A stretch of DNA of 64,000 nt from the NCBI RefSeq assembly GCF_001581005.1, contig NZ_LHZV01000063.1, positions 1 through 64,000 of the forward strand. The letters run 5' to 3'. Every line of letters begins with the position of its first letter. The stretch's first letter is position 1. The translations under genes were made by a program, and so were the position numbers. The notes below the pieces were generated by a model that made no database searches, had not been told where the DNA came from, and saw only the letters and a program-made list of their open reading frames with translations. Positions 22,250 through 30,709 of the stretch are shown piece after piece. The DNA is from Acetobacter orleanensis. Lineage in GTDB: Bacteria > Pseudomonadota > Alphaproteobacteria > Acetobacterales > Acetobacteraceae.

Positions 22250-23134
22250 TTACAGCACGCGGGCAGCAACCGCTTTCAGCTTGGTGAGCAGCGCAGGATC
22301 CCGCGCATCCGGGGCGGTAATCAGGGCGTATTCCAACGCTCTGTCACACCCTGCGGAGCAGAGGCCGCGTGGCTGGCCCAGAGCGGGAATCACAGCCTTC
22401 ACCAATGCTTTGGCTTTGGCCGAGTTGCCCTGCATGGTTTTGACAACGCTTTCTACCGTCACGTTATCATGGTCTTCATGCCAGCAATCATAGTCCGTCA
22501 CCATAGCGACGGTCGCGTAGCAAATTTCTGCTTCCCGCGCCAAGGAGGCTTCCGGCATGTTGGTCATACCAATAACGGAGCAGCCCCATGACCGATACAG
22601 GTTGCTTTCCGCACGGGTGGAAAATTGCGGGCCTTCCATAACCAGATAGGTCCCGCCCCGTGTCACATCAAGCCCGAGCCCGCGGCCCTGCTCTTCCAGC
22701 ACATCCCCAATGCGGGCGCAGAGTGGGTCCGCCATGGAAATATGGGCCACGCAGCCGGTGTCAAAAAAGCTTTTTTCCCGCCAGATCGTGCGGTCAATAA
22801 ACTGGTCAACAATCACAAAATGGCCGGGCGGCAACTCTTCTTTCAAAGACCCGACAGCAGAGAGTGAGACAATGTCCGTCACGCCAGACATCTTCAGGGC
22901 CGCAATATTGGCGCGGTAATTCAGACGGCTGGGCGGAATGGGGTGGCCCCGGCCATGACGCGGCAGGAACACGCAGCGCACACCGTCCAGTCTGCCAAAC
23001 AGAAGCTGATCAGACGGTAGCCCCCACGGGGTTTCAACCGTCCGCCATTCTTTTTCTTCCAGCCCGTCAATATCATACAGGCCGGACCCGCCAATAAGAC
23101 CGATGATGGGTTCCACAACTTCATTTTGTGACAT
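22250..23134 (-). CDS. mtnP: S-methyl-5'-thioadenosine phosphorylase
   Basis: 294-aa purine nucleoside phosphorylase-family enzyme that cleaves methylthioadenosine to adenine and methylthioribose-1-phosphate. Features: IGLIGGSGLYDIDGLE (phosphate loop), LPRHGRGHPIPPSRLNYRAN, VSLSAVGSLKEELPPGHFV, and the substrate block MEGPQFSTRAESNLYRSWG ending in GMTNMPEA. Its start lies inside the end of the cytochrome c1 gene (14-bp overlap), so translation may be coupled. No other methionine-salvage genes are in the window. Confidence 0.94.
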   Translation of the reverse strand: MSQNEVVEPIIGLIGGSGLYDIDGLEEKEWRTVETPWGLPSDQLLFGRLDGVRCVFLPRHGRGHPIPPSRLNYRANIAALKMSGVTDIVSLSAVGSLKEELPPGHFVIVDQFIDRTIWREKSFFDTGCVAHISMADPLCARIGDVLEEQGRGLGLDVTRGGTYLVMEGPQFSTRAESNLYRSWGCSVIGMTNMPEASLAREAEICYATVAMVTDYDCWHEDHDNVTVESVVKTMQGNSAKAKALVKAVIPALGQPRGLCSAGCDRALEYALITAPDARDPALLTKLKAVAARVL

Positions 23135-23981
23135 GAGACCAGATTCTCCGTTTCAGGATAACAAGCAGACAGGCGAGAAAACACAGATACAGCCCAACCC
23201 CAACCCCCAGCCTGCGCTTATCATCCGCATGGGGTATGGAAACCCATGCCAGAAAAGTTGTGACATCCCGCGCTTCCTGTTGCGCGGTCGGCTGGGTACC
23301 ATCCGCATAGGGCACAGCATTGTCCCGCAAGGGCGGCGGCATGGCCGTGATATGGCCGATAGCATAGGGGTTGACGAAGCCGGTTTCTGGTCGTGCGGGA
23401 ACACGACGCACCGCGGCATCCGGCCCCGTTGCAAGGGGTAATGTCTGCGCAGGCTTGTAGCCCGTCAGCAACGCATACACACGGTCAGCCCCACCGGGAT
23501 AGACCTGCGTAATACGGGAGAGGTCCGGCGGCACCGCGCCGCGATTGGCCGCACGCGCCGCGTCGGCATCCGCATAGGGGCGGGGCAGCATATCATCCGG
23601 CGTGGCTTTGCGGTGGCGGAGGTGCCCTTCCGCATCCCTGCCCGCCGCAACCTGCCAAGAGGCTGCAAGGGCTGCCACCTGATCTGACGTGAGCCCCATT
23701 GCGCCGAGATCAGAAAACTGCACCTGCGTCAGACTGTGGCAGGAGGCGCAAACACCGGCGAACACCGCATAGCCACGCTGCACCGCCGCCAAATCAAAAT
23801 GCCCCAGAGGCCCCTTGAAAGACCAGTTCTGCGCGGGCGCATGAGCAGGCGTTCCGGGGGGCGGAGCAGCCTGCGCAACCGAGGCAAACACACCAGCCCC
23901 GGCCAGCACAGGCAGCATCAATGCTGCAAGAGACCGTATCCGCGTAAACGGCCGCGCTATGGGCGACATCCGCGTTGCCAT
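23121..23981 (-). CDS. petC: Cytochrome c1 of the bc1 complex
   Basis: 286 aa from an ATG that overlaps the cytochrome b stop (TGATG). A signal peptide (SLAALMLPVLAGAGVFASVAQA) is followed by the haem-binding CASCH and, near the C-terminus, AMPPPL, which supplies the axial Met. VGLYLCFLACLLVILKRRIW is the single C-terminal membrane anchor. As the periplasmic haem subunit it would pass electrons from the Rieske protein to a c-type cytochrome. A Rieske gene is not present in this cluster. Confidence 0.94.
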   Translation of the reverse strand: MATRMSPIARPFTRIRSLAALMLPVLAGAGVFASVAQAAPPPGTPAHAPAQNWSFKGPLGHFDLAAVQRGYAVFAGVCASCHSLTQVQFSDLGAMGLTSDQVAALAASWQVAAGRDAEGHLRHRKATPDDMLPRPYADADAARAANRGAVPPDLSRITQVYPGGADRVYALLTGYKPAQTLPLATGPDAAVRRVPARPETGFVNPYAIGHITAMPPPLRDNAVPYADGTQPTAQQEARDVTTFLAWVSIPHADDKRRLGVGVGLYLCFLACLLVILKRRIWSHVTK

Positions 23982-25222
23982 CAAGACCGCGCCTCCCGCC
24001 CCACCAGCCGACTGTAGAACGGCAGAAAGCCGAGGAAATACAGATAATACCCTACCGTTGCCAAACGCCCGAGCAGCAGCCAGACACCCTGCACATGGTG
24101 CCGCCCGGCAAGCCCGGCCAACACGCAGGAACAAACCAGCACCCCAAGCGCCACACGCGGCAGCCAGCGCAACCCACCCCAACGACCCGCCGCAAAAGTC
24201 GCTGCCGTGCCACGATCCAGCCAAGGCACCACCAGCAGGATAGCCACAGCACCTCCAGACACCAGCAGCCCGAAAAACTTGGACGGCACAGCCTGCAACA
24301 TTCCGTAAAACGGCAGAAAATACCATTCCGGCTCAATATCCGCGGGCGTATGCAGGGGGTTGGCAGGGCGGTAATTGGCCGCCTCTGTCACCAGACCGGG
24401 CCAGAAACACATAACCAGCGTGAACAGAATGGCCAGCACCACAACACCCAGACCATCCTTGACCGTAAAATAGGGATGAAACGGCAGCATCCGCGCCCTG
24501 TCCTGCCCCGCAGCGCCAGAGGGGCTGGTGCTGCCCCGCCTATGCAGAATGGCCACATGCAGCAGCACCAGCCCGACAATAGTAAAAGCAAGCGTGAAGT
24601 GCAGCACAAACATCCGGTGCAGGGTGGCCGTGCCGGGTGACTCCCCGCCCAGAAACACACCTTCCAGCGTATTGCCAACCAGCGGGATTGCGCCAACAGC
24701 CTTACCCGCCACATCCGCGCCCCAATAGGACATCTGCCCCCACGGCAGGACATATCCGGCAAAAGCCGTCACCATCACCAGAATCAGCAACACTGTGCCA
24801 ACGCTCCACAGACCCTGACGCGGCGCACGGTATGACCCGTACCACAGCCCCCGGAACACATGCAGATACAGGGCCGCCATAAAAAACGTGGCTCCCGTCA
24901 TGTGCAGGCTGCGCAGGAGCCAGCCGAAGGGCACGCGCCGCTCCAGCGTTTCAACAGAGGAAAAAGCCAGTGAGGCATCGGGCGTATAGGTGAGCGCCAG
25001 CGTCAATCCGCTCAGCAGCATAAGCACCAGAACAGCCATCAGCATGGCCCCGATGGTCCAGAGACTATTCAGGTCTCGCGGCAGCAGAAACGCCATATAG
25101 TCACGCACAAAAGCCCGAGCCGTCTGCGCTGTGCGGCCTGATGCGGACCCGTCTGCGGTATCGGGCTCTTCATGCGCCTGATCCTGACAAGTGCTCTCCA
25201 GACAAGATGGTGTGCCTGCCAT
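23981..25222 (-). CDS. petB: Cytochrome b of the bc1 complex
   Basis: 413 aa from the ATG complementary to 25220-25222, with GGGGAG just before it; earlier codons in the frame are not family-like. Two bis-His pairs each spaced by 13 residues are seen: HMTGATFFMAALYLH and HFTLAFTIVGLVLLH. The quinol-site motif is PEWY (EPEWYFLPFYG) and PWGQMSYWGADV is intact. The N-terminal ~45 residues are polar and Asp/Glu-rich, longer than usual. The gene is divergent from hemF, and the upstream 176 bp contain no petA (Rieske). Confidence 0.95.
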   Translation of the reverse strand: MAGTPSCLESTCQDQAHEEPDTADGSASGRTAQTARAFVRDYMAFLLPRDLNSLWTIGAMLMAVLVLMLLSGLTLALTYTPDASLAFSSVETLERRVPFGWLLRSLHMTGATFFMAALYLHVFRGLWYGSYRAPRQGLWSVGTVLLILVMVTAFAGYVLPWGQMSYWGADVAGKAVGAIPLVGNTLEGVFLGGESPGTATLHRMFVLHFTLAFTIVGLVLLHVAILHRRGSTSPSGAAGQDRARMLPFHPYFTVKDGLGVVVLAILFTLVMCFWPGLVTEAANYRPANPLHTPADIEPEWYFLPFYGMLQAVPSKFFGLLVSGGAVAILLVVPWLDRGTAATFAAGRWGGLRWLPRVALGVLVCSCVLAGLAGRHHVQGVWLLLGRLATVGYYLYFLGFLPFYSRLVGREARS

Positions 25223-25398
25223 CCGCTCCCCCTTACCTCCGCCAGATACGGCATCCAGAACGCCGCACAGAACAGTGTTGTCGTGTTTAACGATGAACAG
25301 CATGATCTTGCAATGATCGTCAGGATGGCGCACCTCTAGACCCCTGAGCAGGCGCGGGTGAGCCTCCACCCGTGCGTGAGAGGAAAAAAGACCCGGCT

Positions 25399-26313
25399 AT
25401 GACCCCCACCAAAGCGTATTCTCTGCCCGCCCATACCGCCCTGAAAACAGACGCAAAAGAGTGGTTTGAAACACTGCGCGATAAAATCTGCGCGGCGTTT
25501 GAACACATTGAGCAGGACGCCGTGCAGCAGAACACGCCCATTCTGCCCGGCCACGAGGCCGCAGGACGGTTTGAGCGCAAAAGCTGGGACCGACAAAATC
25601 AGGATGGCACTCCCGGCGGCGGCGGCATTATGAGCGTCATGCGCGGCCGCGTTTTTGAAAAAGTGGGCGTGAACGTCTCCACCGTGGAAGGCACATTCTC
25701 TCCCGAATTCGCAGCCACCATTCCCGGTGCGTCGGAAGACCCGCGCTTTTTTGCAACCGGCATCAGTCTTGTGGCGCACATGTGCAGCCCGCTGGTGCCT
25801 GCCGCGCATTTTAACACCCGTATGATCATCACCACACAGGGCTGGTTTGGCGGTGGCGGGGATATTACCCCCATGTTCCCGGAAAGTGCTGCGGCAATTG
25901 ATGACGCAGCCCGCTTCCACGCAGGGTTTGAGCAGGCCTGCGCCCGCCACAACCCGGAATATTACCCGCGCTTTAAAGCCTGGTGTGATAAATATTTCTA
26001 TCTCCCGCACCGCGATGAACCGCGCGGTCTGGGCGGCATTTTCTATGATCGGCTGGACAGCGGAGACACCGCGCAGGACTTCGCCTTTACCAAGGATGTT
26101 GGCCTTGCCTTTCTGGAAACCTACCCGGAAATCATCCGAAACAGGATGAGGGAAGCATGGACACCGGAGCAGCGGGATGCGCAGTTGATCCGCCGTGGTC
26201 GCTATGTAGAATTCAACCTGCTGCATGATCGCGGCACGCTGTTTGGCCTGAAAACCGGCGGCCATACGGAAGCAATTCTGATGAGCATGCCGCCGGAAGT
26301 AAAATGGCCCTGA
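25399..26313 (+). CDS. hemF: Oxygen-dependent coproporphyrinogen III oxidase
   Basis: 304 aa. Converts coproporphyrinogen III to protoporphyrinogen IX with O2. Family blocks: [53 protein letters not shown], and the C-terminal signature [20 protein letters not shown] ending in MPPEVKWP. The ATG at 25399 is chosen because family members begin about here; an in-frame GTG at 25372 would add nine residues. It is divergent from petB, so haem synthesis and cytochrome b share one promoter region. Confidence 0.96.
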
Positions 26314-26446: not shown

Positions 26447-27604
26447 GTGCCGCGCACTGATCAGCCAGATCAATCCTCTTCCGCCCGCCCCTTCTCGCGC
26501 CGTCAAATACTGGCCGGGTTATCGGGTATCACCGTCTCGTGCCTTCTGCCCCTCCGCGCTGCACGCTCCGTCACGTCGGGGAACAAGGTGCCATCCCCCC
26601 TGATCGTTGGTGGTACGGCTGAGAGCATCTGTGGCCAGTGGGCTACTTTACTGGCCCCGGTGCTGGCGGATGACCTTCGATACGCCACCCCATTCCCCTT
26701 ACGCCTCACCACCGGGTGGGACGGTGTAACCGGCGGTAATCTGTTTGATATTCAGCAAGAGCAGGCGTCTCCCCCTGCCGGGCTGATCATACCCGGCTCC
26801 GGCCTGATTGCCGCCCTGCGGGGCGACTCCCGCGTGCATTATGACGCTCAACGCTGGCTGCCGGTGTTTATGAGCTGTCAGCCAACCGTCGCCATCGGCA
26901 AAGTCAGCCTGCATCGCACCTTTACCAGCTTTCTACAGGGGCGCCCGGTGCGTGTTGCAGTCTCCACCCTTTCCGGGCCGGAACTCCCAACCCTTGTGGC
27001 GCTGGACCTTCTGGGGATGCACCCCCTGCCTGTCTCTGGTTACGCCACGCCCGATGCTGCCATTGCTGCGCTGAAGGTCGGGGCTGTTGATGTTATCCAG
27101 CTTCCGTTTGATGAAACCTATGAAGAACGGATGGCTGCCCTTCAGGATGAAGAACCGGGCAACCAACCTCTGTTCTCCAACGTGCTCCCGACATCTACTG
27201 GACCACGCCTGCGGCTCCCCCCTGATTTCACGACCATTTTCAAACAGGAACGGCGACGTCTCCCCCCTGCGCGGCTCTATGATGTCTGGAAAACAGCGGC
27301 AGCTGCGGCCAGCCTGAAGGCCGGGCTGATGCTGCCCAATTTATCCCAGCCGGACCTCGTGGCCCGTTTCCGCCATGCGGCGCAGGTTGCGGCAGCCGAC
27401 CCTACTCTGCACGCTCATGCCAGAGAGCAGAATCAGACCCTTGTTGCGGGCCTTCCCTGCGCGGCTCTTTATGCGGACATGATGCCGGATCTGGACCGTA
27501 TTCTGGCCCTCCGGCGCTGGCTCTCTACAAACAGCCTCCACTGGCGTGACGCCCCAGCCAACAAACCCCTACCGCTTCCGGCGGCGCAGCAGAATACGAA
27601 CTGA
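26447..27604 (+). CDS. Tat-exported periplasmic binding-protein-like protein
   Basis: 385 aa, GTG start with GGGAGG ten bases upstream. RPFSRRQILAGLSGITVSC is a twin-arginine signal (SRRQIL) leading into a hydrophobic stretch, so a folded or cofactor-bearing periplasmic protein is suggested. The mature part (PLIVGGTAESICGQWATLLA, VAVSTLSGPELPTLVALDLL, AIAALKVGAVDVIQLP) resembles solute-binding receptors of tripartite carboxylate transporters, but I cannot place it in a named family with confidence. No transporter membrane subunits are adjacent. Its 3' end overlaps the convergent Smr gene by 36 bp. Confidence 0.65.
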   Translation: MPRTDQPDQSSSARPFSRRQILAGLSGITVSCLLPLRAARSVTSGNKVPSPLIVGGTAESICGQWATLLAPVLADDLRYATPFPLRLTTGWDGVTGGNLFDIQQEQASPPAGLIIPGSGLIAALRGDSRVHYDAQRWLPVFMSCQPTVAIGKVSLHRTFTSFLQGRPVRVAVSTLSGPELPTLVALDLLGMHPLPVSGYATPDAAIAALKVGAVDVIQLPFDETYEERMAALQDEEPGNQPLFSNVLPTSTGPRLRLPPDFTTIFKQERRRLPPARLYDVWKTAAAAASLKAGLMLPNLSQPDLVARFRHAAQVAAADPTLHAHAREQNQTLVAGLPCAALYADMMPDLDRILALRRWLSTNSLHWRDAPANKPLPLPAAQQNTN

Positions 27605-28207: not shown

Positions 28208-28251
28208 AAAAAAACGGCCCTCTGGCAAGCTTATCACCTGCCGGAGGGCCG
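28208..28251 (-). terminator. Rho-independent terminator of the cytochrome c peroxidase gene
   Basis: Read on the minus strand, CGGCCCTC (complement at 28244-28251) pairs with GAGGGCCG (28215-28222); the stem extends inward by a further four to five pairs, and a run of seven T follows. It sits 54 bp after the peroxidase stop. Confidence 0.88.
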
Positions 28252-28304
28252 CCTTTCAAGGGACCAGCGCATTTATCTGGCTGGACCCTCTCTTTTTCTG
28301 CACT

Positions 28305-29744
28305 TTACTGCGCGTTGGCCGGCTGGCCCATGTCGGCCAGAGAGCGGCCTTCATATTTCCCGGTCAGGGTTTTGAGGAACACAACAATGTCACTCACATC
28401 CTGATCAGAGATCGCGGCATCCGGCGTCTGATATTTCGCCATTTTCCGCACGGCTTCATCCAGCGTCTTCACGCTGCCGTCATGGAAATACGGAGCAGTC
28501 TGGTCAATGTTCCGCAGGGTCGGGACGACAAAGCGGGACATATCCTCATCCTTATGTGTCACGTCATAGCGGCCTTCATCAGCCGCAGTCAGCTTGCCGC
28601 CACGGTCCTTGAAGTAATCGCCTTCCAGACCCATCGCCTCATACGCGCCGCCGCCCACAGCAATCCCGCTATGGCAGCCGGAGCAGCCAATGCTCTTGAA
28701 CTTGTCATAGCCACGTTTGGCCTGCTCACTGATGGCACTGGCATTACCCTTCAGATACTCATCAAACGGGCTGTCCGGTGTCACCAGCGTTTTTTCAAAC
28801 TCGGCAATCGCGGTGGTAATGGTGTTCTGATCCATCGCCGCATCCTGCCCGAAAGCGGAGTGGAACAGCGGCGCGTAATCTGGGTTGGCGGCCAGTTTCT
28901 GCGCAACGACTGACCAGTCATGCGAGCCCATTTCAACCGGGTTCATCACCGGGCCAGCGGCCTGCGCCGCCAGATCAGCCGCACGACCGTTCCAGAACTG
29001 CGCAATCTTGAAATACGCATCATACACTGTCGGCACATTGATGGGGCCTTTCTGGCCGCCAATGCCCGTGGCCGTTACCAGATGGTCCACACCGCCATGG
29101 TTCAGGTCATGGCAGCTTGCGCAACTCTGCGTGCCGTCACCAGACAGGGTTTTGTCAAAGAACAGCTTGCGGCCCAGCGCGACCTTGGCGGCATCCACCG
29201 GCACACTGGCAGGCACAGGGCGTACTGGCTCACCCGTAAACTGGGATGCAGCCCCCGTGTCGCCGTAATATTTGCGGCGGGTATCTTCCACCCATTTCAG
29301 CAGGGCCTGACGTTCCCCATCAGACAGGTGCGCATGCCAGTGCATGAGCAGATAGAGGGTGGGCGGCATACGGTTTTGCGTAATCACTTCCTCAATGCGA
29401 GAAAGCTGCTCTTCCGTTGGCGCTGTACCGTTCTTGAATGCTTCCAGAACCGGCTCAATACGGAAATGGCGCAGACCTTCATGCAGGTCCTTTTCCATTA
29501 ACTGGTTAGCCAGCGGCAGCTTGAAGTAAAAAGGCAGATCTCGGCCTGTGGCGTGACAGTAATCACAGCGGGATTCCCGCAAAGCATTAAAAGCGGCAAG
29601 AGCCACCGGATCTTTGAGCGTAGGAGAAGCCGCAGGTAATTCGGGGGCCGTCACATGGTCAAAATGGGTGAGGAAGGCAATTGTTCCGCCATAAGCCAGA
29701 ACACCCACTCCTACTAACGAGGCAATTAATCTGCGCAACACCAC
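28305..29744 (-). CDS. Tri-haem cytochrome c peroxidase (YhjA/Ccp-like)
   Basis: 479 aa. Residues 4-26 form an uncleaved membrane anchor. Three haem c motifs are seen: CDYCH at 60-64, CASCH at 208-212 and CSGCH at 354-358. The last two belong to the classical di-haem peroxidase; the extra N-terminal haem with an anchor is the arrangement of E. coli YhjA, a quinol peroxidase. It would reduce periplasmic H2O2 with electrons from the quinol pool or a cytochrome. An FNR-type box lies 58-73 bp upstream of the start and a terminator follows the gene, so it is probably a single-gene unit. Confidence 0.9.
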   Translation of the reverse strand: MVLRRLIASLVGVGVLAYGGTIAFLTHFDHVTAPELPAASPTLKDPVALAAFNALRESRCDYCHATGRDLPFYFKLPLANQLMEKDLHEGLRHFRIEPVLEAFKNGTAPTEEQLSRIEEVITQNRMPPTLYLLMHWHAHLSDGERQALLKWVEDTRRKYYGDTGAASQFTGEPVRPVPASVPVDAAKVALGRKLFFDKTLSGDGTQSCASCHDLNHGGVDHLVTATGIGGQKGPINVPTVYDAYFKIAQFWNGRAADLAAQAAGPVMNPVEMGSHDWSVVAQKLAANPDYAPLFHSAFGQDAAMDQNTITTAIAEFEKTLVTPDSPFDEYLKGNASAISEQAKRGYDKFKSIGCSGCHSGIAVGGGAYEAMGLEGDYFKDRGGKLTAADEGRYDVTHKDEDMSRFVVPTLRNIDQTAPYFHDGSVKTLDEAVRKMAKYQTPDAAISDQDVSDIVVFLKTLTGKYEGRSLADMGQPANAQ

Positions 29745-29801
29745 AACTCCTGAGTTTTTAGAAACACTGCATAGCTTTTATTCGCTGTTGTCAGGGTTGT
29801 G

Positions 29802-29817
29802 TTTGATACATATCAAA
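29802..29817 (-). promoter_or_regulatory. FNR/CRP-type binding site upstream of the peroxidase gene
   Basis: TTTGAT and ATCAAA are separated by four bases, giving an exact TTGAT-N4-ATCAA, the consensus for FNR-class regulators. It lies 58 bp before the peroxidase ATG, a position suited to activation. Confidence 0.7.
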
Positions 29818-29863
29818 ATGTCAAAACGATTATTTTCATAAAAATCATTTAAACAGTCGATGA

Positions 29864-30709
29864 TCACGCTTTTGCAGCGTCAAGATCATCCCGCAGGCGC
29901 TGCCGCGCTATAGCGACGTATTCGGCGTCAATTTCAATCCCCACCCCGTAACAGCCGAGGCGCTGCGCGGCTAACAGCGTGGTGCCCGTGCCCATAAACG
30001 GGTCCAGAACCTGTGCCTCGTCCTGCCCGTGCAACAGCAGGCATTGCTCCGGCAAGGCCACCGGAAAGGTGCCGGGATGGTCGAATTTCTGCTTCCGGTC
30101 CCGCACCGTTTCATAGGGAATAAACCATGCATCGCCCCGGCATCGCCGGTCCTGCACATGGCCGCGGCGCGCGATGTTGGATTTATCCTTATACGGCACA
30201 CCCGCACTCAGCCGGTCCAGCGTCACATCTCCATTCAAGGTGAAGTGGAACAGATGCTCATGCCCACGGTGCAGGAAACGCTGGCTGTTCATGGGTTTGA
30301 AATGGCCGAAGCTATCCTCGCCCACGGAAATGGATTTCACCCACGAGATATGATTTTGCAGCGCAAACAGGTTCCGCAGCCGGACGGCGAGTTCAAACGG
30401 TAGCCACGGTTGAGCGGAGGAGCCTGAAATATTCAGGAAGAAGGAACCATCAGGCCGCAGCACCCGGCGCAAGCCGTGCGCAACCTCAAGCATCCAGTCC
30501 AGATACTCGTCCTCTTCCTTCCTATCCGGATAACTCCGGTAGGACAGGCCGATATTATAGGGCGGTGATGTGATGATAACATCGACGGACTCCGCCTCCA
30601 TGCGCCGCAGCGCACGCAGGCAGTCCCCCCGGATAATCTGTTGCTGGCCAACCTTATACCGCTGCGCGCGTGCAGGGGATGCTGGTTTAGCCCTCTCCCG
30701 TGCTGTCAC
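29864..30709 (-). CDS. Orphan DNA methyltransferase, beta-class (N4-C or N6-A)
   Basis: 281 aa. The catalytic TSPPYNIGLSY lies near residue 50 and the SAM-binding DPFMGTGTTLLAAQRL near the C-terminus, so motif IV precedes motif I: the beta-class order. SPPY occurs in N4-cytosine and some N6-adenine enzymes; the cell-cycle enzyme CcrM has DPPY, so this is not an obvious CcrM. No restriction endonuclease is nearby. Its start overlaps the stop of timA by 4 bp, so it is co-expressed with a membrane-biogenesis gene. Target sequence unknown. Confidence 0.9.
   Translation of the reverse strand: MTARERAKPASPARAQRYKVGQQQIIRGDCLRALRRMEAESVDVIITSPPYNIGLSYRSYPDRKEEDEYLDWMLEVAHGLRRVLRPDGSFFLNISGSSAQPWLPFELAVRLRNLFALQNHISWVKSISVGEDSFGHFKPMNSQRFLHRGHEHLFHFTLNGDVTLDRLSAGVPYKDKSNIARRGHVQDRRCRGDAWFIPYETVRDRKQKFDHPGTFPVALPEQCLLLHGQDEAQVLDPFMGTGTTLLAAQRLGCYGVGIEIDAEYVAIARQRLRDDLDAAKA

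Follow-up and report, generated by a model that had tools for sequence, protein, structure and literature searches.

The ccp gene of Acetobacter orleanensis probably encodes a quinol peroxidase that is activated by FNR at low oxygen and co-activated by OxyR when H2O2 is present. We infer regulator binding, activation, the electron donor and H2O2 respiration; the underlying features are listed below by their positions in the window, the whole 64-kb stretch of DNA that was analysed. Because a second conserved element of OxyR type accompanies the FNR box, control of ccp is probably exerted by low oxygen and peroxide jointly, as in E. coli.

Table 1. Features of the ccp locus, in window coordinates
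Feature	Position	Strand	Basis or detail
ccp, tri-haem quinol-peroxidase-type cytochrome c peroxidase (YhjA/QPO/PerC type)	28305..29744	minus	479 aa
Haem motifs of the ccp product			NT haem C60-H64; P haem C208-H212; E haem C354-H358
Intrinsic terminator 3' of ccp, GC-rich hairpin and T run	28212..28253	minus	RNA fold -37 kcal/mol, z -6.6
TAAAAG, candidate -10 of FNR class II promoter P2	29775..29780	minus	22 nt past the FNR box
CACAAC, candidate weak -10 of P1	29796..29801	minus	predicted; 17 nt past TTGACA
FNR box TTGATATGTATCAA (plus strand TTGATACATATCAA)	29803..29816	minus	exact TTGAT-N4-ATCAA palindrome
TTGACA, candidate -35 of OxyR-linked promoter P1	29819..29824	minus	predicted
Candidate OxyR-type operator, four elements at 11-nt steps (ATCG/AAAT/ATGA/CGTT)	29825..29861	minus	conserved block, motif, register
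DNA adenine methyltransferase (N6_N4_Mtase), upstream neighbour of ccp	29864..30709	minus	Pfam

The exact TTGAT-N4-ATCAA that the initial annotation placed before ccp lies 59-72 nt ahead of the annotated GTG and keeps a fixed place across Acetobacter. It is present in 24 of 32 distinct Acetobacter sensu stricto rows, always at the identical position, and conservation of its half-sites is 0.99, compared with an average of 0.76 over the region, with flanks that diverge among these species. On the protein tree of the same rows its distribution needs three changes, which fits a single gain followed by a few losses, gain and loss being indistinguishable by count. No other exact match occurs within the window, where shuffling gives an expectation of 0.04 and 4 of 100 shuffled sequences contain one. 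The whole 3.0-Mb genome has six exact sites, compared with none for a reversed-pattern control. Three of them fall within long reading frames; of the others, one lies 5' of ccp, one lies 5' of fnr, and one has its nearest start codon about 310 nt away. The only clear targets are therefore fnr and ccp, and the six sites cannot be read as one regulon. Five more distantly related Acetobacter genomes carry TTGATCTCGATCAT, a box-like sequence that lies near -109, farther upstream than the OxyR operator.

The regulator presupposed by the initial annotation exists as the one full-length protein in the CRP/FNR set of this genome. It has a CRP-family helix-turn-helix domain, four cysteines in iron-sulfur spacing and an E-x-x-SR recognition helix (ETVSR), and both the cysteines and ETVSR are invariant across 35 orthologues. 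Its best NCBIfam match is FnrL at 152 bits, under the equivalog cut-off of 300. An exact FNR box also precedes fnr itself (C35:18172-18948; L007, L126), and many species have a second. The presence of one or two conserved boxes 5' of fnr in most Acetobacter genomes examined suggests autoregulation. In the draft genome G035 an FNR homologue was not found, though the ccp box is present there.

The initial reading of this promoter holds for the FNR-type box, but it overlooked an equally conserved element directly upstream. This element, a 37-nt block followed by TTGACA immediately 5' of the box, is conserved in Acetobacter with and without the box, as well as in three other genera. We classify the block as a candidate OxyR-type operator on the basis of its motif. 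Of 25 registers, that of its four elements gives the best fit to the OxyR pattern ATAG-N7-CTAT-N7-ATAG-N7-CTAT, with 9.75 of 16 matches compared with 8.04 for the next, even though the elements depart from the E. coli OxyR consensus and the fourth fits poorly. Constraint on methyltransferase coding does not account for the block, which begins past the stop codon of that gene and persists in species for which no upstream methyltransferase was found.

Between oxyR and ahpC of this genome, a position matrix trained solely on 28 ccp promoters scores 27.3, compared with 12.0 at the best unrelated place in the window; a matrix from which the Acetobacter sensu stricto promoters are omitted scores 29.9 there between the two genes. 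An IUPAC operator pattern has exactly two matches in 3.0 Mb, one at ccp and the other between oxyR and ahpC (L162 2419-2626). At the oxyR locus, the top score falls just 5' of oxyR in 26 of the 27 related genomes that have this type of OxyR, weakly so in a few. Elsewhere in the genome, AT-rich places reach a motif score of 23.5, compared with a simulated maximum of 18.2, so isolated scores in the low twenties do not establish a site and the argument for the operator rests on position and recurrence. The same motif search placed no site near catalase, which was thus rejected as an OxyR target.

The OxyR protein is LysR-type, is 38% identical to its E. coli counterpart, and is encoded divergently from ahpC. 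It keeps the redox cysteine pair (E. coli C199/C208) as EDGHC...C within EDGHCLREQTLAVC. Its best NCBIfam match is OxyR at 209 bits, which is under the cut-off of 329. Of the 28 genomes that have this type of OxyR, 24 carry the operator at ccp, compared with 1 of the 18 that lack the type (p = 5e-8, kinship ignored). One strain, ESL0709 (G121), has both FNR box and operator at ccp but only a distant type of OxyR. This second, distant type (35-38% identity) is likewise the only one in G085, G082, G139, G145, G251, G208, G097 and others, several of which have a TCGG...CCGAT block before TTTTGACA or TTAGACA at ccp. The block is perhaps the operator of the distant OxyR.

Two sets of candidate promoter elements lie around the box. 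A consensus promoter scan returned nothing at its thresholds, and the candidates in Table 1 are predictions from conservation and spacing. Of the 23 distinct promoters with the box, 22 have a TAnAAn hexamer exactly 22 nt past it, whereas none of the 25 without the box does; the transcription start of P2 is predicted near 29768. This spacing would center the box at about -41.5, as in a class II promoter, and it therefore points to activation by FNR. The other set consists of TTGACA, exact in 22 of the 25 promoters without the box and in 17 of the 23 with it, and a CACAAn that all 23 of the latter retain. Since these conserved elements flank the FNR box, FNR could also block a promoter, and P1 and P2 may overlap to form a switch instead of a pure two-input gate.

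If P1 is an older, OxyR-driven promoter with FNR bound in its spacer, then FNR would block P1 at low oxygen and either drive P2 or silence ccp. This possibility draws on the fact that the OxyR operator and TTGACA are commoner than the FNR box, and on the retention of CACAAn even though it lies outside the box. We consider it unlikely, because the class II -10 occurs only together with the box and argues for activation, the -10 of P1 is weak, and yhjA of E. coli is FNR-activated (PMC4207228). Activation by FNR, joined by OxyR, is the reading that we prefer.

The enzyme itself agrees with the initial description of a YhjA-like peroxidase with an extra N-terminal haem and a membrane anchor. Its three CxxCH motifs, at residues 60, 208 and 354, are accompanied by the Pfam domains Haem_bd (19-153) and CCP_MauG (186-335), and the motif at residue 60 belongs to an extra N-terminal domain as in the tri-haem quinol peroxidases. 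A hydrophobic helix at residues about 5-27 (hydropathy 1.94 over 6-25) would serve as the anchor, and a low-confidence AlphaFold model (14 close sequences, mean pLDDT 54) has a helix at residues 2-32. Among the YhjA residues named in PMC10301912, His64, Met126 and His135 of the NT haem domain are retained, M126 being the NT haem ligand (E. coli M125), as are Gln261 and Glu271 of the P haem pocket (E. coli Q260, E270) and Tyr18 and Asp29 of the helix. The haem cysteines and histidines, three methionines, the glutamine and the glutamate are invariant across 73 distinct orthologues. In a sequence search of the PDB, the top match is 9qdt, deposited under the title 'Probable cytochrome c peroxidase' (E = 9.9e-118, residues 54-464), which ranks above every di-haem enzyme. 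By domains, ligands and anchor helix, the ccp product is a YhjA/QPO/PerC-type tri-haem peroxidase. Its use of ubiquinol to reduce H2O2 is proposed by analogy with E. coli YhjA, Zymomonas mobilis PerC and Aggregatibacter actinomycetemcomitans QPO.

The gene could instead specify a detoxifying peroxidase that receives electrons from the bc1 complex via cytochrome c and takes no part in a quinol-driven respiratory step. Many di-haem relatives use cytochrome c, and cytochrome bc1 is encoded in this window at a distance of about 3 kb from ccp. This donor seems distinctly improbable, given that the NT haem domain, the anchor and the helix residues of the quinol-using type are present. In addition, the membrane NADH peroxidase activity of Z. 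mobilis was lowered by loss of perC and not by loss of bc1 (PMC4148688). Finally, a chance palindrome before ccp, which would agree with the intragenic position of half of the exact sites in the genome, is hardly credible and is rejected in view of the fixed position and half-site conservation of the box, its linked -10 and the box that fnr has of its own.

In the preferred reading, the N-terminal helix would hold the enzyme in the inner membrane with its haem domains facing the periplasm, and electrons from ubiquinol would pass through the N-terminal and E haems to reduce H2O2 at the P haem. The FNR-type (GoxR-type) regulator would turn on ccp from its class II site while low oxygen spares the iron-sulfur cluster, and OxyR, centered about 33 nt further upstream, would act as second activator with H2O2 present. 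Cells short of oxygen but supplied with peroxide would then make the enzyme, which could serve as both a respiratory end step and a peroxide sink.

The surroundings of ccp add some detail. The annotated start is the GTG at 29744, but AGGAG at 29747-29751 suits GTG 29741 or TTG 29738 equally well or better. Co-reading of anything downstream is unlikely because of the strong terminator hairpin that follows the gene. The methyltransferase gene is found 5' of ccp at 63 of 72 loci, and its stop codon immediately precedes the operator. Elsewhere in the window, the bc1 subunits cytochrome c1 and b are encoded beside hemF (23121-26313), and a 385-residue frame with the look of a solute-binding protein but no Pfam match occupies 26447-27604.

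The ccp orthologues at 85-92% identity all belong to Acetobacter (malorum, cerevisiae, persici, farinalis and others), and the gene is present in all 36 other Acetobacter genomes sampled (split in two). Near full-length ccp at no less than 58% identity occurs in about 33 of 200 sampled Acetobacteraceae genomes. It seems to be in two pieces or frames in A. okinawensis JCM 25146 (L037/G005), G006 and G185, which may be assembly errors. The OxyR operator is commoner than the FNR box in acetic acid bacteria, so the simplest history has the box arriving later and the likeness to E. coli arising by convergence. Less simply, the two arrangements may go back to an older shared ancestor, with the box lost repeatedly since.

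Three related species, A. peroxydans (L023/G002), L026/G031 and L030/G029, have kept the ccp operator and lost the FNR box. A. peroxydans L023 retains fnr with its own box, as well as oxyR, and G002 has identical features upstream of ccp. No PF00199-type catalase or PF00141 peroxidase was seen in the A. peroxydans genome, and the catalase of G029 reads as broken pieces. Two reduced abomasum Acetobacter MAGs of 1.5-1.7 Mb (G012, G016) have lost the close type of OxyR, and both operator and FNR box are gone from their ccp promoters; a search for PF00199 catalase in them found none. According to old reports, Acetobacter peroxydans is able to use peroxide as a hydrogen acceptor, and ccp is a molecular candidate for this ability.

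A fuller scenario, whose parts we put forward jointly and only tentatively, is possible. In it, E. coli-like control by FNR and OxyR re-arose in Acetobacter when a box, at precisely the spacing seen in E. coli, and a new class II -10 appeared inside an older, surviving OxyR promoter. The overlapping promoters would take turns, one under peroxide stress in air and the other in low-oxygen peroxide respiration, and the catalase-less A. peroxydans would later have shed its FNR site and retained its OxyR site.

The enzyme and its two-sensor logic are already known from E. coli, where yhjA is under FNR and OxyR regulation (PMC10301912, PMC4207228) and is induced by OxyR in hypoxia, H2O2 becoming a usable terminal oxidant (PMC8115020, PMC12051229). 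What appears new, judged from sequence, is their occurrence in acetic acid bacteria, with an FNR box inside an OxyR promoter. The initial annotation correctly assumed an aerobic host: the acetic acid bacteria, including Acetobacter, are described as strictly aerobic (PMC9171043), unlike E. coli. The arrangement suggests that 'strictly aerobic' bacteria may keep a regulated electron route to H2O2 as oxygen runs low. It also predicts the sequence of the OxyR operator of acetic acid bacteria, of which no description was found in the searchable literature.

Z. mobilis PerC and A. actinomycetemcomitans QPO are, by their descriptions, tri-haem, membrane-anchored quinol peroxidases (PMC10301912, PMC4148688), and the precedent for a quinol donor comes from YhjA and QPO (PMC10301912). 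For the regulator, the closest description is that of GoxR of the acetic acid bacterium Gluconobacter oxydans, which is presented as an FNR-type iron-sulfur regulator of respiration genes (PMC9429829, citing Schweikert 2021). The classical di-haem cytochrome c peroxidases 1iqc, 3o5c and 6qkn share the E and P haem domain (E = 1e-60 to 1e-77) and are without the NT haem domain or anchor. The histidine of their IGH loop is a glycine (IGG) in the ccp product, as in YhjA, and together with the three haem motifs this rejects assignment to the classical di-haem class.

The closest parallel is E. coli YhjA/Ccp, which is 43% identical to the Acetobacter protein from end to end and has the same three haem motifs and ligands, although Trp118 and Tyr25 of E. 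coli are replaced by Glu and Phe in Acetobacter. Its promoter (L086) contains ATAG-N7-CTAT-N7-ATAG-N7-TCAT beginning 45 nt before an exact FNR box (TTGATTCCTATCAA), and the distance from operator start to FNR box is also 45 nt in all box-bearing Acetobacter ccp promoters. A -10 of TATGAT follows about 21-22 nt past the box in yhjA, compared with 22 nt in Acetobacter. The two promoters differ in that the operator elements of Acetobacter are ATCG-like, unlike those of E. coli, and that yhjA is without TTGACA where ccp has one. This matching geometry in an alpha- and a gamma-proteobacterium provides a natural test of the spacing that FNR and OxyR need for cooperation.
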